A stretch of 47,692 bases of DNA from Sedimentisphaerales bacterium (GTDB lineage Bacteria; Planctomycetota; Phycisphaerae; Sedimentisphaerales; UBA12454): positions 1 through 47,692 of the forward strand of contig JAFGGI010000021.1 in NCBI GenBank assembly GCA_016930635.1, given 5' to 3'. Under the pieces are notes generated by a model, which worked only from the letters and a program-made list of their open reading frames with translations, was not told the DNA's origin and searched no databases. Below are positions 37,201 to 47,692 of this stretch, one piece after another; position 1 is the stretch's first letter, and every line of letters starts with the position of its first letter. The translations under genes were made by a program, and so were the position numbers.

Positions 37201-37914
37201 ATGAAAGGATTTTTGACTTTATTAGCTGCTGTAGTCGTAATAGCCTCCCCGGCTCTTGCGCTGACGATCTCGCAAACAGGGTCTTTCGGCGGTATACCGG
37301 ATATAACCGGCCCGTTGACATTCAACCAGTTTGATGATAACGGCGGCCTATGGATACTGCAGTCCGTTCAGGTCTCAATCGCCATACAGGCAAGCGGAGG
37401 CTCAATGCACCTCGATAATGACAGCCCTTTGCCGGCCGATGTTAACTTTACATACGGTATAACCGGAATGGTAAGTTCTACCGATGTAACACTTAAAAAC
37501 GCCGCTGCACAGTATATTCCGCTCCCGGCGGTAGCTTCCTTCAATGCCTCTACTACTCTTGCTCCAAATGTCGGCGATATACCGGGCGATTATGACACAA
37601 CCGCCCCTGATGGCGCTATGTATAACGGAGGTGTCGTCATAAGTGATGTACAGTCTGATTTCGTAGGACAGGCCTTCTGGGGCGATGGAACAAAAGGTTT
37701 CCTCGGAAATGGCACTTTTGATATAGACTATTATGCCACACAATGGCTTAATTTCAGCAGCACAGGCGGTATAGAATATAGATATAATCCTGCTACCGCT
37801 GCAGGTATGGTAACTGTACTTTATACCTATGACATAATACCTGAGCCTTACACGATATTATTGCTGACATTCGGCAGCTTACTGCTCAGAAGAAGGAAAT
37901 GGAATTTTATGTAA
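37201..37914 (+). CDS. PEP-CTERM protein, choice-of-anchor E-like domain
   Basis: The 237-residue protein has a signal peptide (MKGFLTLLAAVVVIASPALA) and the block GPLTFNQFDDNGGLWILQSVQ, which resembles the beta-sandwich domain called choice-of-anchor E in sortase-type surface proteins. The C terminus reads IIPEPYTILLLTFGSLLLRRRK, a PEP-CTERM tail with Tyr in place of Ala, extended by WNFM. The neighbour at 38322 is a clear paralogue with a near-identical promoter. Function is unknown, probably a structural or adhesive surface protein. Confidence 0.85.
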   Translation: MKGFLTLLAAVVVIASPALALTISQTGSFGGIPDITGPLTFNQFDDNGGLWILQSVQVSIAIQASGGSMHLDNDSPLPADVNFTYGITGMVSSTDVTLKNAAAQYIPLPAVASFNASTTLAPNVGDIPGDYDTTAPDGAMYNGGVVISDVQSDFVGQAFWGDGTKGFLGNGTFDIDYYATQWLNFSSTGGIEYRYNPATAAGMVTVLYTYDIIPEPYTILLLTFGSLLLRRRKWNFM

Positions 37915-38321: not shown

Positions 38322-39023
38322 ATGGCAAAAAAGTTTTTCTACATCTTTGCTGCTGCTCTCTTGCTGACAGTTGTACCGGCTTTTGCCGATACAATTGTAC
38401 AAACACAGCCTTTCAACGGTGTACCCAATATGAGTGGTCCATTGACATTCAATCAATTCGATGACAATGGAGGACTCTGGGTTCTATCATCAATTGAAAT
38501 CGAGGTTAACCTACAAGCCAATTGTGGCCAGCTTGTGCTTGACAATGACAGCCAGGACCCTGCTGCAGGAAACTTCGAATTTGGAGCAAAAGGAAGCATT
38601 AGCTCCTCAGACGTAAGTTTGACGGATATCGCGTTTAATCCCATTACAGGACAGGTCGATGCTTATTACAGCGGTGCCTTTAGCCTGGATCCTAATGACC
38701 TTGGCGACGGCTCCGGCGATTATGACCCGACGCCTCCCGACGGTATGCAGTACAATGGAACACTGCAAACCGATAGCTCCTCAGCTTTTGTAAACGTCGG
38801 TGCCTGGACAGGTTATATGGGCTCCGGCACCTATGATATCGACTATTCCGTAATACAATGGCTTGATTATGGCAGTATCAGCGGAATCGAAGTCGCTTTT
38901 ACACCAGTAAATGCATGTGGCGATGTAACCGTAACTTACACCTATGAAGTTATCCCCGAGCCCACAACAATAGCACTGTTGACAATCAGTACTTTAGGTT
39001 TCTTAAAGAGAAAAAAGCAGTAA
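38322..39023 (+). CDS. PEP-CTERM protein, paralogue of the preceding unit
   Basis: The 233-residue protein has a signal peptide (FFYIFAAALLLTVVPAFA). It shares GPLTFNQFDDNGGLWVLSSIE, LDNDS, the GDYDxxxPDG block and DIDY..xQWL with the upstream protein, so the two arose by tandem duplication that included the promoter. The tail is VIPEPTTIALLTISTLGFLK followed by RKKQ. GAGG precedes the ATG. No catalytic residues are visible. A surface-exposed binding role is inferred. Confidence 0.88.
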   Translation: MAKKFFYIFAAALLLTVVPAFADTIVQTQPFNGVPNMSGPLTFNQFDDNGGLWVLSSIEIEVNLQANCGQLVLDNDSQDPAAGNFEFGAKGSISSSDVSLTDIAFNPITGQVDAYYSGAFSLDPNDLGDGSGDYDPTPPDGMQYNGTLQTDSSSAFVNVGAWTGYMGSGTYDIDYSVIQWLDYGSISGIEVAFTPVNACGDVTVTYTYEVIPEPTTIALLTISTLGFLKRKKQ

Positions 39024-39305: not shown

Positions 39306-39335
39306 TTGACAAATCCCACTTATCTATGTTATAAT
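39306..39335 (+). promoter_or_regulatory. Consensus promoter of the large PEP-CTERM operon
   Basis: A perfect TTGACA (39306-39311) and a perfect TATAAT (39330-39335) are 18 bases apart. The transcript would begin near ATCGGGGTGGAGG, another G-rich start like those after the promoters at 36899 and 38163. Confidence 0.8.
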
Positions 39336-39341
39336 ATGCGT

Positions 39342-40061
39342 TGTTATCGGGGTGGAGGAAAACTTGGGAGATTAGAGAAAACACGTCACGGAGGAAGGAG
39401 AAAGACGCGTACCAGAATGGCTGGTTGTTGCGCCTTTTTCTGCATCTACCTGCTTAAATTGGAGAAAACACAGAAGCTCTATATGTATATTCTGTTAGAG
39501 CTCGGTGCTGTTTAAAGACCGATTTGATTGAAAAATTAAATCAAAAAAAGTTAGTACACAGTTTTTAGTTCTTAATTGGTTGGAGGGAGAACAGGGACTG
39601 GAGGAAAAACAGGGAAAAGAAGGAAAGAAGTTATTTGGAGTTAAGTTTGATGAGAAGAATTAAGAGTTGCGAGAAGAATTATGACATTCGCGAGAAGAAG
39701 TCGGCCTTTTCCCTGGCCCAAAAACAGTCTTTCTGTTTTATCCCCGCTATTATCCGTCCTGCGCAGATGGTCTGTACTTGATACAGCCGGCTGGCAGTAC
39801 AATAATAGCTTAACAGACGGATTCAATCGGAGAAACTGTCTAAACACGGACAGTCTCTCGACACACTCAATTTCCCTCGGGGGAAATGTCGCTCATTGCG
39901 CAGCGGCCAATTCACATTCTGAAACTATCGACAGCCGAAATGTCGTTATTTCAGACCCTATTTGCAATCCGGAATCAGTCACCTCCCCAGCAAAAGTTAA
40001 AGTTAAAGGTGTTCGGATTAGCATATCAAAAAACAAGGAAAGGAAAGAAGAGGGTAACGTA
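39342..40061 (+). other. Long purine-rich leader of the PEP-CTERM operon
   Basis: About 720 bases separate the promoter from the first convincing start codon. The first half is dominated by G/A runs on the plus strand, such as GGGGTGGAGGAAAAC, CGGAGGAAGGAG and GGTTGGAGGGAGAACAGGG, then GAGAAGAA blocks near 39650-39700. Open frames in this stretch lack ribosome sites, signal peptides or protein-like composition. It is most likely an untranslated leader, possibly with regulatory structure or G-quadruplex potential. Confidence 0.5.
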
Positions 40062-40736
40062 ATGATTTACAGAAACGCAAAAGTCATTCCGCAGTATTGC
40101 CTGACCTTAGCTGTAATAGCTCTGGTATTTACTGCACTGCCCGGCAAAGTTAAAAGTGCACTTTATTTCGATGAAGCGGACTTCATCGCAGCAGTTGGAA
40201 CTCACGACCTTGAGACATTTGAATCAATCCCATTAGGTTCATACGGAACATCTGCCGTATTAGGCGATCTGACTTTCGCCTCCCCGCCTGACTCATACAT
40301 CGGCGTCGTAGCAATAGACCCGGCCGGTTATGGCACTCACAACACGACCCCCACAGGCGAGAATTATCTCTATGCTACTGCAAACCCGGGACACCACGAC
40401 ACGATGAGCGCAGGACACATCGGCGGACAATTGTATGCATGGGGAGCCAATTTCACTGACCTCGACTACGGATATGTCACCATCGCTGTTGATTACGAGA
40501 TGGTATATGACCTGATATCACCAGGTCCTGATGGAGGCATAATGTTTATCGGCTTCATCGCAGACAATGATGGCCCATGGGGTTCCAGCTTCAACCACAT
40601 ACAGATCATCACTGATGACAATGTCTACGGAATAGACGATGTCAGAACAAGATTAGTTCCAGAACCAGCAACAGTTACTTTGCTTTGTATCGGCTCCCTG
40701 GCTTTATTCAGAAAACAAAAACACATAGTTAAATAA
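40062..40736 (+). CDS. PEP-CTERM protein, first gene of the operon
   Basis: The 224-residue protein starts at the ATG with AGAAGAGGG just upstream. Its signal peptide reads CLTLAVIALVFTALPGKVKSA. Mature residues include a FDEADF start, LETFESIPLGSYGTSAVLGDLTF, and a repeated aromatic-Gly beta pattern, all common in lectin-like PEP-CTERM proteins. The tail is VPEPATVTLLCIGSLALFRK followed by QKH. A longer frame reaching back to 39681 has no signal sequence in front and is rejected. The next gene begins 13 bases downstream. Confidence 0.82.
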   Translation: MIYRNAKVIPQYCLTLAVIALVFTALPGKVKSALYFDEADFIAAVGTHDLETFESIPLGSYGTSAVLGDLTFASPPDSYIGVVAIDPAGYGTHNTTPTGENYLYATANPGHHDTMSAGHIGGQLYAWGANFTDLDYGYVTIAVDYEMVYDLISPGPDGGIMFIGFIADNDGPWGSSFNHIQIITDDNVYGIDDVRTRLVPEPATVTLLCIGSLALFRKQKHIVK

Positions 40737-40748
40737 CGGAGAAGAAAG

Positions 40749-41657
40749 ATGAAAAGATTATTAACGTTTTGTACGATTCTAACATTGATGCTGGCCGTCT
40801 CGGCTCAGGCAGCTCTGGTTGCCCCGGATAGCATATTAGCATCCGGTATCGCAATGCACAAAGCCGGAGCGCCGGTAACATTGCCCGCCCCCGGTGATTA
40901 TAAATGGTGGTACGGATGTGCTCCAACATCAGCCGGTATGGTCATGGGCTATTATGATGTCCAGGGATATAACGGGATGTCGCTTGGCAACCTCGTCCCC
41001 GGCGGACAGGCTGAAAACAGCACCTACGGCGCAGGTCCTTACCTGGCAAATAATGCGATTGCCAGCTCAGGCCATATCAATGATTTTTATTCAGGTGGTT
41101 ACGGAGCTTCAGGCGATGATGTCTCACCGCCCTGGCACTCATTCGACTGCCTCGCTGACTTCATGGGAGCCAGCCAGGACAGCGTCGGAAATCCTAACGG
41201 TGCTACTGGTTTCTTTTACTATCTCAACGGCGCACCGCTTACCAGCGACAATATTATCAGCCATGGCCTGACAGAAGAGAGCGGAATGTATGGAATACGC
41301 GAATACATCGAGTACAGAGGTTATCAGGTCGAGAGCTTATACAATCAGTACATCGATACACAGGAACTCGATTTCGGCTTCACATTCGCACAATACATGG
41401 CAGAGATCGATGCCGGAAGACCAGTATTGATCCACATCGATAACCACTCAATGTTCGGTTACGGCTACGATGCAGCTAACAACTCCGTACTCTTACATGA
41501 TACATGGACCTCGGGGCAGCACGCTATGACCTGGGGCGGTTATTACGATGGAAAAGAACATTACGGCGTTACCGTACTGACTGTCGTGCCTGAACCGGCA
41601 ACTATCGCCCTGCTCGCTTTCGGCGCATTAACTCTTATTAGAAAAAGAAACAAATAA
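40749..41657 (+). CDS. PEP-CTERM protein with C39-like cysteine peptidase fold
   Basis: The 302-residue protein has a signal peptide (ending LAVSAQAA) and then WWYGCAPTSAGMVMGYYD. This gives a nucleophile-like Cys57 at the head of a helix, as in C39-type papain-fold peptidases. HIDNHSMFGYGYD supplies His233 and LLHDTW supplies Asp251, in the usual Cys-His-Asp order and spacing. It ends VVPEPATIALLAFGALTLIR followed by KRNK. It would act outside the cell, perhaps processing surface proteins, but activity is inferred. A close paralogue is at 46744, and the two share long identical blocks such as GNLVPGGQAEN and LANNAIASSGHI. Confidence 0.85.
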   Translation: MKRLLTFCTILTLMLAVSAQAALVAPDSILASGIAMHKAGAPVTLPAPGDYKWWYGCAPTSAGMVMGYYDVQGYNGMSLGNLVPGGQAENSTYGAGPYLANNAIASSGHINDFYSGGYGASGDDVSPPWHSFDCLADFMGASQDSVGNPNGATGFFYYLNGAPLTSDNIISHGLTEESGMYGIREYIEYRGYQVESLYNQYIDTQELDFGFTFAQYMAEIDAGRPVLIHIDNHSMFGYGYDAANNSVLLHDTWTSGQHAMTWGGYYDGKEHYGVTVLTVVPEPATIALLAFGALTLIRKRNK

Positions 41658-41658
41658 A

Positions 41659-42237
41659 ATGAAAAAGTTATTTGTAATTTGTTTAATCTTTGCGGTTATG
41701 TTTGGCCTGTCAACTCAGGCACAGGCGTATTGGACCGGTTTTGAGGACCTTAACTATGGCCCCTATACCAGTATCGCTTACTCATGGGTTGAGTTTACGA
41801 ATAATATGGGCAATCTTGATGTGGGAAATAAAATCCCCGGCCCGGACTTCAGCGGAACACATTCGGTTATTGGTCCTAATACTCACGACTCCGGTGAAAG
41901 ATATATAGCCGACATCCTTGTTCCTGCGATCAATTTCGTATCGGTAGTTATGGGAGACCTCGGCTATGATGAAGACCCCTTGTATCTGGAAGCCTATAAC
42001 TCTTCTGGTCAATTGATAGGAACTGATTATAAATTACTTCCCGAAAACGCAGTTGGAGGATTAACACTGTCAGTTTCTACTTCCGAGGATATCGCTTATG
42101 TACATTTCTATTCCGGCCAGAGGTATCCCGGCAGCGTTTACTTTGACAACTTTACCGCAATTCCGGAACCGGCAACTATCGCCCTGCTCGGTTTTGGTGC
42201 ATTAACTCTTATACGAAGAAGAAGAAATAAACAATAA
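41659..42237 (+). CDS. PEP-CTERM protein of unknown function
   Basis: The 192-residue protein starts one base after the previous stop, so translation is probably coupled. It has a signal peptide (FVICLIFAVMFGLSTQAQA), a compact beta-rich mature part beginning YWTGFEDLNYGPYTSI and containing AYVHFYSGQRYPGSVYFDNF, and the tail IPEPATIALLGFGALTLIRR followed by RRNKQ. The pattern resembles small carbohydrate-binding jelly rolls but no specific family is recognised. Confidence 0.82.
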   Translation: MKKLFVICLIFAVMFGLSTQAQAYWTGFEDLNYGPYTSIAYSWVEFTNNMGNLDVGNKIPGPDFSGTHSVIGPNTHDSGERYIADILVPAINFVSVVMGDLGYDEDPLYLEAYNSSGQLIGTDYKLLPENAVGGLTLSVSTSEDIAYVHFYSGQRYPGSVYFDNFTAIPEPATIALLGFGALTLIRRRRNKQ

Positions 42238-42251
42238 AAAGGAGTGTAAAA

Positions 42252-42878
42252 ATGAAAAGATTAATTGCAGCCTGTTTTATAATAACTTTGATAGCCGGCC
42301 AATATACTCTCGGTGATGGAATAGTACAACTGCACATTGGCCGTTATGATCTGCCTAATAGAAATTACGAAGGTGAACTGCTGGTTACAGTTCTCAGCGG
42401 ACTCGAAGAGATCCCCACAAATTTTGGTTCTTTTTGTCTGGAACGTCATGAAATTGTCTTACCATGCACACCCTACAACGCCGCGATAAATGTTGAAGCT
42501 ATTAAGGGCGGCGAAGATGTTTCTGATCCATTGTCGCCAAAAACAGCCTGGCTTTACGACCAGTATCTGACCGGAGCTATCACATTCAGCGTCGATTATG
42601 ACGCCACTCAGTTCCAATATGCTATCTGGGCTCTCGAAGATGAGGTCGTACCATACCTGTATGATGAAACTAATAAGGTTTACTGGAACTCGATGGCAAC
42701 AGCTTACTATGACGCCGCTCTGGCCAGCGACTGGGACAGTATAAGACACATTCGCGTCCTAAACCTCGGACCTGCACCGGACTATCCAAATCAGGATATC
42801 TTAGCCCCGATCCCCGAACCGGCAACTATCGCTATGCTCAGCCTTGGCGCTTTAACACTAATTAGAAAAAAGAAATAA
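42252..42878 (+). CDS. PEP-CTERM protein with thioester-domain-like features
   Basis: The 208-residue protein has a signal peptide (LIAACFIITLIAGQYTLG). FGSFCLERHE (Cys62), TAWLYDQYLTG and ATQFQYAIWALED (Gln122) appear in the order seen in Gram-positive thioester adhesin domains, where a Cys and the Gln of a QxAIW block join in a covalent bond that attacks host surfaces. The match is by eye and limited to these blocks. The tail is IPEPATIAMLSLGALTLIRK followed by KK. AAAAGGAG precedes the ATG. If correct, it is a covalent surface adhesin anchored through the exosortase route. Confidence 0.8.
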   Translation: MKRLIAACFIITLIAGQYTLGDGIVQLHIGRYDLPNRNYEGELLVTVLSGLEEIPTNFGSFCLERHEIVLPCTPYNAAINVEAIKGGEDVSDPLSPKTAWLYDQYLTGAITFSVDYDATQFQYAIWALEDEVVPYLYDETNKVYWNSMATAYYDAALASDWDSIRHIRVLNLGPAPDYPNQDILAPIPEPATIAMLSLGALTLIRKKK

Positions 42879-42907
42879 CAAAAATAGATATAGAGAAAGA
42901 CAAAAAA

Positions 42908-43549
42908 ATGAAAAAGAATCTTACATTCATCTTAGTACTTACAATATGCGTCAGTTTCACAGGTATCGCACAGGGTATTATAGCAGACGCTCCAGGATGT
43001 CCGGTAATGGGTATACCATACGTAATGGAAAACGGACCGATTTGCTATGCAGGCCCGGATACAACCTATATGTTAGGAAACTTCGCAATGATCTCAAAAA
43101 CTCCTGGTGACCTGCCTCCTTCAAGCGGTGGATCCCTGCCTGTTGACTCATTTTTCGATGTCTTTACAGAACTTTCCGTCGATGGCGGAAATTCCTGGAT
43201 GGCTGACAGCTTCTTTGATGTCTTCGTAGAGCTTTCTGTTGACGGCGGAGGCGGAACATTCCAGACCGAGATAGTTTCAATGACCCTCTCAGGCCACAGT
43301 GCAATGCCGATAATCATTCGAGAATCCCCTCAGATGGTTTCTTCAGGTATGCATGTAGTCGAACAGATCCCAGGAACTAATCTGTTCCACATCGACAGCT
43401 TCTTCGATGTATTTACAGAACTTTCAGTCGACGGCGGCCAGACCTGGATTCCTGCATGTGCTCCAATGAGACTCCCAGCTACCCCCGAACCAACTACAAT
43501 CGCCCTGCTTACATTAGGCGGTTTGATTTTAAGAAGGAAGAAAAGATAA
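42908..43549 (+). CDS. PEP-CTERM protein with three DSFFDVFxELSVDGG repeats
   Basis: The 213-residue protein has a signal peptide (FILVLTICVSFTGIAQG). A 15-residue motif, DSFFDVF(T/V)ELSVDGG, occurs at about residues 80, 100 and 163. The first two copies are in direct tandem with a 20-residue period and are followed by short SWM/TWI ends. The motif is acidic, aromatic and predicted as beta hairpin. Its role is unknown. The tail TPEPTTIALLTLGGLILRRK followed by KR is a PEP-CTERM signal. No catalytic set is visible. Confidence 0.82.
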   Translation: MKKNLTFILVLTICVSFTGIAQGIIADAPGCPVMGIPYVMENGPICYAGPDTTYMLGNFAMISKTPGDLPPSSGGSLPVDSFFDVFTELSVDGGNSWMADSFFDVFVELSVDGGGGTFQTEIVSMTLSGHSAMPIIIRESPQMVSSGMHVVEQIPGTNLFHIDSFFDVFTELSVDGGQTWIPACAPMRLPATPEPTTIALLTLGGLILRRKKR

Positions 43550-43575
43550 AAGTATATATTAGAAAGAAATCGTAA

Positions 43576-44286
43576 ATGAGAAAAAGTTTATTCATTTTGG
43601 TGTTGACGGCAATTTTTATTACAACACCCGGCCTGAATGAGGCTGCTTTATTCATTCCGCAGGACCAGGACAAAGACGGTATGCACAATCCTGACCACTC
43701 CTGCTGGCTCGCTTCTGCCTCGAACATGCTCGCAGCAGCAGGTTACGCCGACGGTAATGTACAGACAATATATGACAGAATGACCTCATTTTTCGGCTGG
43801 GAAGAGCCAGGCCTGCAGAAACTCGCACTGGACTGGTATATCGACCAATATCCTGAACCAGCCAACGCTTACACTGTTGTTGAAGAGCACTGGGGCAACG
43901 ACCAGGCAAACCCTGACTTTATTTCTCAACGTTTAGCAGCCGACCAACTCGTCAGTATTATGTTCTGGTACGGCCAGGAAATCGGACATTCTCTGACAAT
44001 CTGGGACAACCAGTCAGCCGTCATTCCGCAGGGATATTTCTCAGACTCTGATAAAGATAACGGAAGTGACTTTACATGGTACACATGGATAGATGATGGA
44101 ACTGGTGACTGGAAACTTGACTACCCCGGCGTTACCGATGCTGATGTCAATTACGTTGTCACGCTCGGCATCCCCGAACCGGCAACTATTTGTATGCTCA
44201 CCGCAAGCTCTTTAATAATCGTAAGAAAAAGAAATAAAGATAAAAAAAGATTAGTTCATTCACAAGGCGCAGGAAGAAAGAGATAA
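43576..44286 (+). CDS. PEP-CTERM protein with IdeS-like cysteine peptidase fold
   Basis: The 236-residue protein has a signal peptide and then FIPQDQDKDGMHNPDHSCWLASASNMLAAAGY. Cys43 begins the helix as in IdeS/Mac-1-type papain-fold peptidases, and IGHSLTIWDN supplies His138 with Asp144 nearby. An acidic DSDKDNGSDFTWYTWIDD follows. The tail is IPEPATICMLTASSLIIVRK, extended by an unusually long basic end (RNKDKKRLVHSQGAGRKR). The next gene is a paralogue. A proteolytic role at the cell surface is inferred from the Cys/His layout. The aspartate or asparagine assignment is uncertain. Confidence 0.82.
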   Translation: MRKSLFILVLTAIFITTPGLNEAALFIPQDQDKDGMHNPDHSCWLASASNMLAAAGYADGNVQTIYDRMTSFFGWEEPGLQKLALDWYIDQYPEPANAYTVVEEHWGNDQANPDFISQRLAADQLVSIMFWYGQEIGHSLTIWDNQSAVIPQGYFSDSDKDNGSDFTWYTWIDDGTGDWKLDYPGVTDADVNYVVTLGIPEPATICMLTASSLIIVRKRNKDKKRLVHSQGAGRKR

Positions 44287-44304
44287 AAATAATCGGTACC
44301 TGAG

Positions 44305-44348
44305 GTTTCTATTTACTATAGTTTCTATAGAAAGACACAAGTAGAAAC
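44305..44348. repeat. Nested palindrome between paralogous peptidase-like genes
   Basis: GTTTCTA (44305-44311) pairs with TAGAAAC (44342-44348), enclosing a perfect 12-base palindrome TTTCTATAGAAA (44322-44333). It lies in the only sizeable gap between the two IdeS-like genes and may be a transcript-processing or attenuation site. Confidence 0.4.
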
Positions 44349-44372
44349 AAAAATAGTAGAAGGAGCCTCCCA

Positions 44373-45071
44373 ATGAAAACGAAACTATTTATTTTGGCGG
44401 TACTCATGACTGTTTTTATTTCGACCTTAAATTCGGCACAAGCAGCGCTAATCATTCCACAAGACCAGGACAAAGACGGTCTGCACAATCCTGATTACAC
44501 CTGCTGGATGGCATCAGCTTCTAATCTGCTTGCAGCTGCAGGTTACGCAGATGGTGAAGTAAAGACAATTTACGACAGAATGACGGATATGTTTGGATGG
44601 GATATTGCTGCGCTGCCGCACCTGGCGGTTCAGGCGTACCTCTCTGAATATCCAGAGGCCGATAACCTTTACACGATAGTCGACGAGTACTGGGGAAACA
44701 CGTATGCGAATCCGGAATTTGTAAACCAGCAGCTTGCCGAAGACAAACTTGTCAGCGTTACTTTCTGGTACGGCCAAAGCATAGGCCATTCCATCACAGC
44801 CTGGGAAAACGAAGAAGCCGGACCTCTGCAGGGATATTTTTCTGACTCCGATAAAGATGATGGCGGAGACTTCACCTTATATACATGGGTAGATAATGGC
44901 TACGGCGACTGGTCTCTCGACTATCCAGGTATCGCAGGTGCCGATGTAAATCACATCGTCACTCTCTCTGCTATCGATATCGTCCCCGAACCGGCAACTC
45001 TAACAATACTGATGATCGGTTCTCTGATATTCCTAAGGAAAAACAAAAACAGCCGGGCTGTGACAGTATGA
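44373..45071 (+). CDS. PEP-CTERM protein with IdeS-like fold, second copy
   Basis: The 232-residue paralogue of the preceding gene keeps IIPQDQDKDGLHNPDYTCWMASASN with Cys44, IGHSITAWEN with His139, and the FSDSDKDDGGDFTLYTWVDNG block. The signal peptide ends near NSAQAA. The tail is VPEPATLTILMIGSLIFLRK followed by NKNSRA. The putative catalytic residues are conserved in both copies while much of the surface differs, which is what one expects if activity is retained and targets diverge. AAGGAG precedes the ATG. Confidence 0.85.
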   Translation: MKTKLFILAVLMTVFISTLNSAQAALIIPQDQDKDGLHNPDYTCWMASASNLLAAAGYADGEVKTIYDRMTDMFGWDIAALPHLAVQAYLSEYPEADNLYTIVDEYWGNTYANPEFVNQQLAEDKLVSVTFWYGQSIGHSITAWENEEAGPLQGYFSDSDKDDGGDFTLYTWVDNGYGDWSLDYPGIAGADVNHIVTLSAIDIVPEPATLTILMIGSLIFLRKNKNSRAVTV

Positions 45072-45167
45072 CTCTTATATTCGCAAAAATATATAAAAAT
45101 TATGAACTAAATAAAAACAGCAGCTTGATGCCGCATCTCTGTTGTGGCGAAAAGAAAGGAGGTGTTT

Positions 45168-45197
45168 ATGCAGAAACTATGCGTGCCGGATAGTTGA
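45168..45197 (+). CDS. Possible 9-codon leader peptide before a PEP-CTERM gene
   Basis: A strong AAAGGAGGTG ribosome site at 45156-45165 is followed by ATG CAG AAA CTA and a stop after nine codons (MQKLCVPDS). A fresh ribosome site and the real gene start follow at 45231. The good ribosome site in front of so short a frame is the reason to list it. Confidence 0.35.
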   Translation: MQKLCVPDS

Positions 45198-45230
45198 AAG
45201 GAGTGAAAATTGGGTTTTAAGGAGAAAACA

Positions 45231-45995
45231 ATGAAAAAGTTAATTACTATTTTTTTAGTTAGCTGTGCATTTTTTATCATCTGCAGCTCAGCGCACGCTG
45301 ACTGGTTCCAGGATGACCCCCACAAAATGCACTACCCGCAAATGCCTGACCCTCAAGGCTGGGATATTGCACTCGCTCCGCAGGAAGTAGCCGACGACTG
45401 GAAATGCAGCCAAACCGGTCCCGTCTCAGACATCCACTTCTGGTACTCCTGGCAAGGGGATAGAGTAGGACAAATCAGGGGAATCAATGTAAACATCTAT
45501 TCAGACAAACCAGCCCCTGACAGTCCCGCAAGTGCCCATTCGGGCAGACCAGAACCTAACAGCCCCGGCTATAGTATGCCGAACGAGCTGCTTTGGAGCA
45601 GATACATCACTGACTTCAAAACAATACCGTATGGCGAAGGTACACAGGGTTGGGCCGAACCTCTTTCACAGATATGGGAAACCGAAGACCACCATATGTT
45701 CTATCAGGTCAACATCGTTGACATTATAGAACCGTTCATCCAGGAAATAGGTACCATTTACTGGCTCGGTCTTCAGATAGATACCGTCGAAGGACAAATA
45801 GGCTGGAAAACTTCTCTGGACCACTGGAACGACGATGCGGTTATCGGCGCTTACACAGCCCCCTGGATGGAATTGATTGATCCATACACAGGAAATTCAA
45901 TCGATATGGCCTTTGTCATTACACCCGAGCCTGCAACTATCATCCTGTTCGGTTGCGGCACATTGGTTCTGTTCCGCAGAAAAAATAATAACTAA
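45231..45995 (+). CDS. PEP-CTERM protein with ADDWKC..DIHFWYSW domain
   Basis: The 254-residue protein starts at the ATG after AAGGAG; a frame seven codons longer lacks its own ribosome site. It has a signal peptide (LITIFLVSCAFFIICSSAHA) and the block EVADDWKCSQTGPVSDIHFWYSWQGD, which I recall from many secreted planctomycete proteins of unnamed function. A Pro/Ser-rich loop (KPAPDSPASAHSGRPEPNSP) splits the domain. The tail is TPEPATIILFGCGTLVLFRR followed by KNNN. The 32 bases around its start are identical to those of the gene at 46744. Confidence 0.83.
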   Translation: MKKLITIFLVSCAFFIICSSAHADWFQDDPHKMHYPQMPDPQGWDIALAPQEVADDWKCSQTGPVSDIHFWYSWQGDRVGQIRGINVNIYSDKPAPDSPASAHSGRPEPNSPGYSMPNELLWSRYITDFKTIPYGEGTQGWAEPLSQIWETEDHHMFYQVNIVDIIEPFIQEIGTIYWLGLQIDTVEGQIGWKTSLDHWNDDAVIGAYTAPWMELIDPYTGNSIDMAFVITPEPATIILFGCGTLVLFRRKNNN

Positions 45996-46022
45996 AAAAA
46001 TTAACACAAAGGAGTGCTAAAT

Positions 46023-46691
46023 ATGAGAATTTACGGAAATCTATCTTCTTACAAAACACGTATCGCAACACTCATCGTTCTGACAGTAACAATGGTCGTA
46101 TCAAATGCCGGTGCCGAAATGCTTGTCAACGGCAACTTTGAAACAGGAGACCTGACCGGCTGGACATGGACTCCTACACAATATTCCGACCCTAATATGA
46201 CAGCAGGAGTAGTGGTCTTTGACACCGCTGCCGGCCAGCCAAGTAATTGCTTCAGGGCAAACCCGGGTACTGATGTACCCCACTATGGAATCGGTCAGGA
46301 AGAAGGAGGATTCTTATCACAATCCATAAATCTCGTTGCAGGGAACACATATGATGTATCCATAGGCGCCGCTGCAATACGGGATCTCGGAGGCGGTGCA
46401 AACTATGACGGCGGCAGAATCCGACTCTATATAGGTGGTTCTCTATTATGGGATTGGGATATTGACGACATAGGAGCATCGCAAACTGTACGAAGTTCGT
46501 TTGACGGCACATTTGTTCCAACTGTTACCGGAGCACACGACTTTGACCTGCTATTCACACGAACCTACACAAATACTCCGGTCGCCATATACCACTACCT
46601 CGATAACGCTTCCGTAGTCCCTGAACCGGCAACTATTATTCTGCTTGGACTCGGTGCTTTAACTCTGCTCAAAAAAAAGAAACAGGCATAA
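46023..46691 (+). CDS. PEP-CTERM protein with NGNFETGDLTGW carbohydrate-binding-like domain
   Basis: The 222-residue protein starts at the ATG with AAAGGAG upstream; a GTG three codons earlier overlaps that site and is rejected. After the signal peptide (ending VSNAGA) the mature protein begins MLVNGNFETGDLTGWTWTP, the standard opening of jelly-roll carbohydrate-binding modules in secreted bacterial proteins. AHDFDLLFTRTYTNTPVAIYHYLDNASV closes the domain. The tail is VPEPATIILLGLGALTLLKK followed by KKQA. Its ligand is unknown. Confidence 0.84.
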   Translation: MRIYGNLSSYKTRIATLIVLTVTMVVSNAGAEMLVNGNFETGDLTGWTWTPTQYSDPNMTAGVVVFDTAAGQPSNCFRANPGTDVPHYGIGQEEGGFLSQSINLVAGNTYDVSIGAAAIRDLGGGANYDGGRIRLYIGGSLLWDWDIDDIGASQTVRSSFDGTFVPTVTGAHDFDLLFTRTYTNTPVAIYHYLDNASVVPEPATIILLGLGALTLLKKKKQA

Positions 46692-46743
46692 ATAAACGAT
46701 AGCTTAACAAAAAAATTATTTTTTGGGTTTTAAGGAGAAAACA

Positions 46744-47664
46744 ATGAAAAAGTTATCGATATTATGCTTGATAGCTGTCGTAACTCTGACAGCAGCAGTT
46801 ACTCACGCCGGAGCAATTTATACAGACGACACGTTAAAATCCTTAGGCATCGCACGCCATCAGACAGGTGCTGCTGCAACTCTGCCTGACCCGGGAGATT
46901 ATGACTGGTGGCACGGATGTTCTCCAACATCAGCCGGCATGATGATGGGGCATTATGACGTCCACGGTTACAACGGCCATTCTCTCGGCAATCTCGTACC
47001 AGGCGGACAGGCTGAAAATAATACCTATGGTCCCGGACCTTATCTGGCAAATAATGCTATAGCCAGCTCCGGACATATAGCCGATTTCTACTCAGGCGGA
47101 ACCGGAGCCTCGGGGGATGATGTTGCACCGCCATGGCACCAGTTTAACTGTCTCTCTGACTTCATGGGAACAAGTCAGGACAGCGTCGGAAATTCTAATG
47201 GGTGGACCACATTTTATTACTACACAAACGGTGCACCTTTTACACATACCGATGCTGTCACACACGGCGTATATGACTCAAGCGGAATGTACGGCATCAA
47301 AGAATATGTCGAATACGCCGGCTACACCGTAGATGTGTTGTATAACCAGTACATCGATACACAGGATCTTGCTTACGGTTTCACTTTCAAACAGTATATG
47401 ACAGAGATCGATGCAGGCAGACCCGTATTGATCCATGTCGAGGACCACACAATGTACGGCTACGGTTATGACTCGCTCAACTCTACTGTATTTTTACACG
47501 ACACATGGAGCCTCGGACAACACACTATGACCTGGGGCGGTACTTACAGCGGACGCGAGCATTACGGCGTAACTGTTCTTACAGTAGTTCCGGAACCGGC
47601 AACAATTGCAATGTTAAGCCTGGGAGCTTTAAGTCTCATTCGCAGAAAAAAACAAACTAAATAA
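46744..47664 (+). CDS. PEP-CTERM protein with C39-like fold, second copy
   Basis: The 306-residue protein is a paralogue of that at 40749 and keeps all three putative catalytic positions. Cys59 lies in WWHGCSPTSAGMMMGHYD, His235 in HVEDHTMYGYGYD and Asp253 in LHDTW. The signal peptide reads LSILCLIAVVTLTAAVTHAG. The tail is VPEPATIAMLSLGALSLIRR followed by KKQTK. Overall the two copies look well over half identical by eye. They are separated by seven other genes, so they did not arise by a recent simple tandem event, or the cluster has been rearranged since. The start is preceded by AAGGAG. Confidence 0.87.
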   Translation: MKKLSILCLIAVVTLTAAVTHAGAIYTDDTLKSLGIARHQTGAAATLPDPGDYDWWHGCSPTSAGMMMGHYDVHGYNGHSLGNLVPGGQAENNTYGPGPYLANNAIASSGHIADFYSGGTGASGDDVAPPWHQFNCLSDFMGTSQDSVGNSNGWTTFYYYTNGAPFTHTDAVTHGVYDSSGMYGIKEYVEYAGYTVDVLYNQYIDTQDLAYGFTFKQYMTEIDAGRPVLIHVEDHTMYGYGYDSLNSTVFLHDTWSLGQHTMTWGGTYSGREHYGVTVLTVVPEPATIAMLSLGALSLIRRKKQTK

Positions 47665-47679
47665 AAAGAAAGGGAGAAT

Positions 47680-47692
47680 ATGAAAAAGTTAA
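47680..47692 (+). CDS. Start of a further gene, cut by the window edge
   Basis: AAGGGAG followed by ATG AAA AAG TTA matches the start pattern of the preceding PEP-CTERM genes (MKKL). Only four codons are visible. Confidence 0.55.

Follow-up and report, generated by a model that had tools for sequence, protein, structure and literature searches.

The stretch of DNA considered here (the window) is an entire contig of 47,692 bp (C34) from the 2.45-Mb, 96% complete genome of a Sedimentisphaerales bacterium (G000). This organism belongs to the Phycisphaerae, a little-studied class of Planctomycetota. The right-hand end of the window carries an operon of plus-strand genes, g1 to g10 (40062–47664) and the start of g11, whose products combine a signal peptide with a PEP-CTERM sorting tail. 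The operon probably encodes a lineage-specific set of exosortase-sorted matrix proteins that includes four surface proteases with a papain fold, all four probably active. Two of these, g6 and g7, resemble the proteases IdeS and Mac-1 in predicted fold and have a complete catalytic set. The other two, g2 and g10, are papain-fold peptidases of the C39_2 kind, as judged from profile matches and a structural model. In the text below, G-numbers denote other genomes of the class and L-numbers denote sequence loci.

IdeS is an antibody-cleaving streptococcal enzyme. Both IdeS and Mac-1 count among the known virulence proteases that act on the host, and IdeS is used clinically. What places g6 (43576–44286, 236 amino acids) and its tandem paralogue g7 (44373–45071, 232 amino acids) beside these enzymes? 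First, in an alignment of 13 sequences, Asp30, Lys33, Cys43, Trp44, His138, and Asp157 (g6 numbering) are invariant, and Asp159 is near-invariant (at least 90% of the sequences). IdeC uses Cys94, His262, and Asp284 for catalysis, and its oxyanion hole is provided by Lys84, held by Asp286, as in Mac-1 (PMC12418751). Lys33-Cys43-His138-Asp157 of g6 corresponds to Lys84-Cys94-His262-Asp284 of IdeS; the Lys-to-Cys spacing is 10 in g6, g7, and IdeC and varies in some homologues, and the two Asp residues are spaced by 2. Second, although searches of the PDB with g2 or g6 as single sequences gave no meaningful match, so that profiles were needed, the profile of the 13-sequence alignment finds T-Mac (TDE0362), a solved protease of Treponema denticola, with an E-value of 6e-5 (PMC11833123). 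Third, the AlphaFold2 model of g6 (pLDDT 83.7, pTM 0.81) has Mac-1, IdeS, and IdeC as its best Foldseek matches (E 2.9e-6 to Mac-1). In VIA-align, which compared only structures ranked by Foldseek, ranks 1–10 are all IdeS, Mac-1, IdeC, or T-Mac (Z 15.5–16.4, with 16.4 for IdeC, 16.2 for IdeS, and 15.8 for T-Mac), followed by staphopain at 13.7. The fold was modelled for g6, and g7 is placed by its 60% identity to g6.

The likeness to IdeS, Mac-1, IdeC, and T-Mac thus comprises a papain fold over 174–179 aligned residues, the Lys-Cys spacing of 10, and the Cys, His, Asp, and second Asp two residues on (PMC12418751). In contrast to these enzymes, g6 and g7 carry a PEP-CTERM tail and come from a Planctomycetota metagenome-assembled genome (MAG); identity over the structural alignment is 14–18%, and the resemblance to these enzymes, which cut antibodies or other host proteins, is one of predicted fold and residues. 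Neither g6 nor g7 matches a peptidase family in Pfam, and none of the 13 members matches the curated Mac-1 model PF09028 at an E-value of 1. Because no member reaches this model, we name the proteins IdeS-like and do not file them under family C66. Of the 397 genomes of the class, 34 have a match to the IdeS-like profile, and relatives occur in Bacteroidota, Desulfobacula, Zixibacteria, and other MAGs; a search for relatives on plasmids found none. Their C-termini vary, being PEP-CTERM tails, tails that we take to be IPTL-CTERM-like or dockerin-like, or none of these, which suggests that the domain serves more than one sorting or docking system. A compact form with a PEP-CTERM tail, resembling g6, occurs in a Desulfobacula MAG. 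The IdeS-like domain is therefore, as far as its sequence relatives indicate, widespread in surface and secreted proteins, with the PEP-CTERM form one of several. A search of one literature library returned no paper on an IdeS-like protease family in exosortase-sorted Planctomycetota proteins, and such a family, with a predicted complete catalytic apparatus, appears to be new. The presumed IPTL-CTERM-like or dockerin-like C-termini were seen at loci L070, L073, L076, L056, L059, L060, and L062, where some frames are split by in-frame stops.

The C39_2-type pair consists of g2 (40749–41657, 302 amino acids) and its paralogue g10 (46744–47664, 306 amino acids). Both exceed the gathering score of 24 for Peptidase_C39_2 (PF13529), g2 with 38.2 bits (E 2.7e-9) and g10 with 27.5 bits (E 5e-6), and Gly56, Cys57, Thr60, and His233 (g2 numbering) are invariant among 24 aligned homologues from the class. 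In the AlphaFold2 model of g2 (pLDDT 76, pTM 0.75), the long helix begins with Cys57 and a strand begins with His233. Foldseek alone gives only a weak match for this model (best E 2.6e-3); VIA-align gives Z-scores of 13.1 to staphopain, 12.2 to SpeB, and 11.1 to a solved C39-like peptidase. The PEP-CTERM tail sets g2 and g10 apart from other Peptidase_C39_2 proteins, and the C39 peptidase of ABC transporters (PF03412), which removes double-glycine leaders, is a different family. A first-pass annotation of the window, made by a model from the sequence, had called these two proteins C39-like and the other two IdeS-like; both calls held, as did its residue assignments (Cys57/His233/Asp251 in g2, Cys59/His235/Asp253 in g10, Cys43/His138 in g6, and Cys44/His139 in g7), and the catalytic Cys and His that it wanted checked among homologues are invariant in both sets.

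The peptidase genes have been duplicated within the operon. The block g2-g3, i.e., a C39-like gene and g3 (41659–42237, 192 amino acids), is repeated as g10-g11, with 71% and 76% identity when the signal and tail are left aside; other comparisons give 68% identity for g2 and g10 and 75% for g3 and g11. The tandem pair g6/g7 is about 60–66% identical. The dN/dS ratio is 0.11 for g2/g10 and 0.14 for g6/g7, and dS is near saturation. Low dN/dS together with near-saturated synonymous sites indicates that the peptidase genes were duplicated long ago and that purifying selection continues to act on them. All four copies have kept their catalytic residues.

Several features suggest that the genes form one transcription unit. 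They lie on the same strand with short gaps, as first described, the intervals between successive genes from g1 to g10 being 12, 1, 14, 29, 26, 86, 159, 27, and 52 nt. The count of nine complete genes needs correction, since ten are complete and an eleventh starts at 47681 (47681–47692 in the window). The proposal that the operon runs past the window edge was right: the final 39 bases of the window are identical to the first 39 of contig C58, which supplies the rest of g11 (27–596, 189 amino acids), g12 (621–1214, 197 amino acids), and a hairpin, GGGCCGTAggttaATACGGCCCTTTTT, judged by eye to be an intrinsic terminator. The window genes and the two added by C58 make this an operon of 12 genes. 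At the other end, about 730 nt before g1, lies a sigma-70-type promoter with an extended −10 element (TTGACA-18-TATAAT, 39306–39335, plus strand). It matches the consensus at 12 of 12 positions, in line with the single consensus promoter noted earlier; such matches turn up 0.025 times per shuffled window on the plus strand. With a single promoter before the genes and a single terminator after them, a common transcript is plausible.

All ten complete products have a signal-peptide-like N-terminus (by eye) and a recognisable PEP-CTERM tail, in agreement with the first reading. Indeed, g1 to g12 all combine a signal peptide with the PEP motif, hydrophobic stretch, and basic cluster, and the genome encodes two exosortases (C2:39985-40740 and C40:14885-15667), which bears out the premise of exosortase sorting. 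PEP-CTERM proteins are exosortase-sorted and exopolysaccharide-associated (Haft 2006, PMC1569441), and export of the operon proteins is likely by sequence. The same paper describes long upstream regions with a shared cis-element, as here, but it reports mostly single-gene operons and, for the proteobacterial PEP-CTERM genes, a sigma-54 site (PMC1569441), in contrast to the sigma-70-type promoter, hairpin leader, and 12-gene operon described here.

Is this operon a conserved system? The gene that follows the terminator on C58 is one that we take to be TrkH-like. In seven relatives (G146, G186, G169, G397, G256, G105, and G372), this gene is immediately preceded by PEP-CTERM genes; a further genome, G265, has none there. 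These TrkH-linked arrays (L172, L165, L166, L167, L168, L169, and L171, with C58, L077:1316-3052, being the instance described here) come from other genera of the family, and their cargo differs each time. Because relatives usually have runs of PEP-CTERM genes at this locus, the run in the window is not a chance arrangement, and because the cargo varies at a conserved locus, the operon is best seen as what this genome carries in a surface-protein island whose content changes fast. No C39-like or IdeS-like gene was found at the locus in the seven relatives, where several contigs are short and arrays may be cut. A g4-like gene is present there only in G146, and homologues of two further PEP-CTERM genes of the window (those at 37201 and 38322, described below) are present in G146, G105, and G372. 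The idea that the operon represents a conserved, dedicated system for surface processing or attack is not sustained: such a system does not follow from cargo that is lineage-specific.

A survey of the class, which had been proposed for the co-occurrence of the two peptidase types, points the same way. IdeS-like and C39-like genes are found in the same genome in 9 of 298 cases, versus 3.1 expected (p 0.001), an excess that is confounded, since most cases come from two families with many PEP-CTERM genes, f16 and f26. Co-occurrence was seen at the level of genomes, but the two types share a contig only in the window, and a conserved IdeS-like/C39-like pair was rejected on both grounds. Short runs of PEP-CTERM genes often hold IdeS-like genes (G256, G147, G027, and G207).

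Taken together, the operon would be one 12-gene PEP-CTERM transcription unit, the lineage's version of a variable island that lies upstream of the TrkH-like gene in most of the family. RNA polymerase would start at the promoter and transcribe a long leader, including its conserved hairpin, before reaching g1. The proteins would leave by Sec, and one of the two exosortases would sort them to the envelope or the exopolysaccharide matrix. There, g2, g10, g6, and g7 would act as cysteine proteases at the cell surface, on matrix proteins or on proteins captured by the matrix; g4 is probably an adhesin, and the remaining members may be matrix or binding proteins. The computations directly give the order of the genes, the promoter and terminator, the sorting tails, the predicted folds, the conservation of catalytic residues, and the synteny of the island. 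Several points weigh against this account as a whole. The single transcript is a prediction from sequence. The joint to C58 rests on a 39-bp overlap whose sequence is also present inside C58; the island synteny in relatives supports it. The tails of g6 and g7 score 12.2 and 15.0 bits, below the NCBI cut-off of 16 for TIGR02595. Asp251 of g2 is common and not invariant among the 24 homologues. The folds of g2 and g6 are AlphaFold2 predictions, and we infer the proteolytic activity of all four peptidases from such predictions and from sequence. What the proteases cut, and what g4 and the other members without a peptidase fold do, are guesses.

What might the proteases cut? One alternative is surface attack or defence, with the proteases cutting proteins of neighbouring cells, predators, or hosts and g4 binding these proteins covalently through a thioester. 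The closest solved relatives of g6 (IdeS, Mac-1, IdeC, and T-Mac) are indeed host-directed proteases (PMC12418751, PMC11833123), and g4 (42252–42878, 208 amino acids) shares three motifs with thioester adhesins (PMC4450167): a Cys motif (Cys62), a Gln-Trp motif (Gln122-Trp126), and a Gln motif (Gln181). Among 17 homologues, Cys62, Trp126, and Gln181 are invariant, so that the Cys/Gln pair first noticed in this product stands, and the three thioester-adhesin motifs are present in 17, 16, and 16 of the 17 (PMC4450167, PMC6194298). As in the thioester domains (TEDs) of SfbI and TIEpLS20, the motifs [YFL]C-hydrophobic-polar, QxxhW, and Q-polar occur in the same order; from this analysis, the candidate thioester Gln of g4 would be Gln181, just before the PEP motif, rather than Gln122 in a helix. 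Unlike those proteins, g4 has no Pfam TED match and ends in an exosortase tail, not LPXTG, and TEDs were reported in 2015 exclusively from Gram-positive bacteria (PMC4450167). Pfam, NCBIfam, and PDB profile matches give no support for homology of g4 to TEDs, and hhalign of the g4 family profile against TIEpLS20 returns a probability of 0.1%; the likeness is one of motifs and stays unconfirmed. Moreover, most IdeS-like genes come from MAGs of Planctomycetota, Bacteroidota, and Desulfobacterota and differ in their tails, which argues for a general role, the peptidases are absent from the same locus in sister genera as far as the contigs there extend, and the operon holds no genes for contact-dependent delivery. 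We regard attack or defence as unlikely.

Matrix maturation is a second alternative, to which we give about the same low weight. The proteases would process PEP-CTERM proteins of the same operon, and g5 (42908–43549, 213 amino acids), which has three DSFFDVF..SVDGG repeats of the form DSFFDVF(T/V)ELSVDGG, would be cut by the IdeS-like enzymes at the Gly-Gly of these repeats. The active site of the IdeS family reportedly admits only Gly or Ala at P1 and P1′ (PMC12418751), and each g5 repeat has a Gly-Gly. The gene order also fits: in a genome from a different order (G057:C44; L152:5685-8375, minus strand), a g5-like PEP-CTERM gene with DSFFDVF repeats lies directly before an IdeS-like gene with a gap of ~16 nt, which is the g5-g6 order of the window. 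Across genomes, g5-like and IdeS-like genes co-occur in 6 cases versus 2.1 expected (p 0.012), a figure confounded by PEP-CTERM-rich genomes. Only two adjacent cases are known, however, Gly-Gly is common, and cleavage of g5 is a proposal made from its sequence.

More speculatively still, the parts could form a covalent capture-and-cut machine on the cell surface, in which exosortase-anchored g4-type thioester adhesins tether their targets to the matrix and the co-expressed IdeS-like and C39_2 proteases cleave those targets, or g5 at Gly-Gly; the immune-evasion proteases of streptococci and treponemes would then be offshoots of an environmental family. We think this improbable. Partial modules do recur, with g4-like genes beside an IdeS-like gene on contig C2 of the genome carrying the window, and the g5-like/IdeS-like pair in G057. 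Across the class, g4-like and IdeS-like genes show no excess of co-occurrence (4 versus 4.0 expected). The C2 array (G000:C2:51014-55473; L141:15015-19474) comprises three g4-like genes and two others, followed by the IdeS-like gene. Its tails are all PAPGA-type, not PEP-type, and it lies ~11 kb downstream of an exosortase gene, which suggests, from sequence, two exosortase/tail pairs in this genome.

Least probable of all is that the peptidase-fold proteins are decayed or repurposed binding modules: papain-fold domains can lose activity, and we know of no PEP-CTERM-tailed member of these peptidases with known activity, but Cys and His are invariant across divergent homologues, as are Lys and Asp in the IdeS-like set, and the paralogues retain their catalytic residues under the low dN/dS given above.

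What would follow if the operon does encode matrix proteins with active surface proteases among them? First, IdeS-like proteases in a PEP-CTERM operon of the Phycisphaerae would place this type of enzyme on the surfaces of environmental bacteria also. Second, an IdeS fold with a full catalytic set in Planctomycetota would let one ask where the family originated and what it cut before antibodies. Third, the exosortase system, which is little understood, would gain cargo of known and hence testable chemistry. The swapping of cargo from genus to genus, with promoter and leader conserved, shows for its part how bacteria of this kind renew the cell surface.

The leader of the operon has recurrent features of its own. 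The array genes of G146, G256, G105, and G372 are likewise preceded by promoters that are perfect or match at 11 of 12 positions. Just after the start lies a TTRGGR..GRGAAAAC-like element, in the window of the GGGG..GGAGAAAAC type (39343–39382, plus strand), which in the same genome also follows PEP-CTERM gene promoters on C14 and C58, and in relatives the array promoters. It is followed by an attenuator-like hairpin with an A-rich 5′ arm and a U-rich 3′ arm, (G)AGAAAGACGCG...GCGCCTTTTTC (39399–39442, plus strand); the family type is GAGAAAACGCG...GCGCGTTTTT. Leader instances are the window (39306–39442), L082:2595-2639, L143:5938-5984 (minus strand), L172:10951-11073, L168:9670-9800, L169:12701-12858, L171:7658-7778, and L166:3899-3943 (minus strand). 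Eight related hairpins, each upstream of a PEP-CTERM gene, were aligned, with 91.5% of pair cells paired and double changes in 3 of 12 pairs versus 0.7 expected by shuffling. A covariance model (R1) built from all eight known sequences scores the window hairpin, one of its own training sequences, at 44.7 bits; a search of 591 kb of sequence with it gave no further convincing hairpin. Over the whole genomes G000 and G146, the leader pattern has 15 matches, of which 8 lie before PEP-CTERM genes; a reversed control has 6. An Rfam search of the leader and operon gave nothing relevant, and the hairpin has no Rfam family. The conserved leader suggests transcription attenuation of surface-protein genes; with eight sequences, all used in the model, it is a lead only.

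Upstream of the operon, the window holds two more PEP-CTERM genes (37201–37914 and 38322–39023), 47% identical in their core; each has a promoter-like TATAAT to itself, and their leaders start with the same AATTGGGG. The remaining operon members are PEP-CTERM proteins. No further domain was found in g1 (40062–40736, 224 amino acids). The 254-residue g8 (45231–45995) is a DUF7901 protein (PF25470, E 9e-44), and g9 (46023–46691, 222 amino acids) has a weak CBM_4_9-like match below the cut-off. Relatives of g8 form a run of at least four tandem DUF7901 PEP-CTERM genes in a distant family (L088:8718-12003; G164:C125), with a C39-like PEP-CTERM gene lying a few kb upstream. A short tandem array in G146 (C2:4038-4283; L226) has a unit of ~114 bp containing TTGGGAGGAGGAGAAAAC, and no adjoining PEP-CTERM gene was seen.

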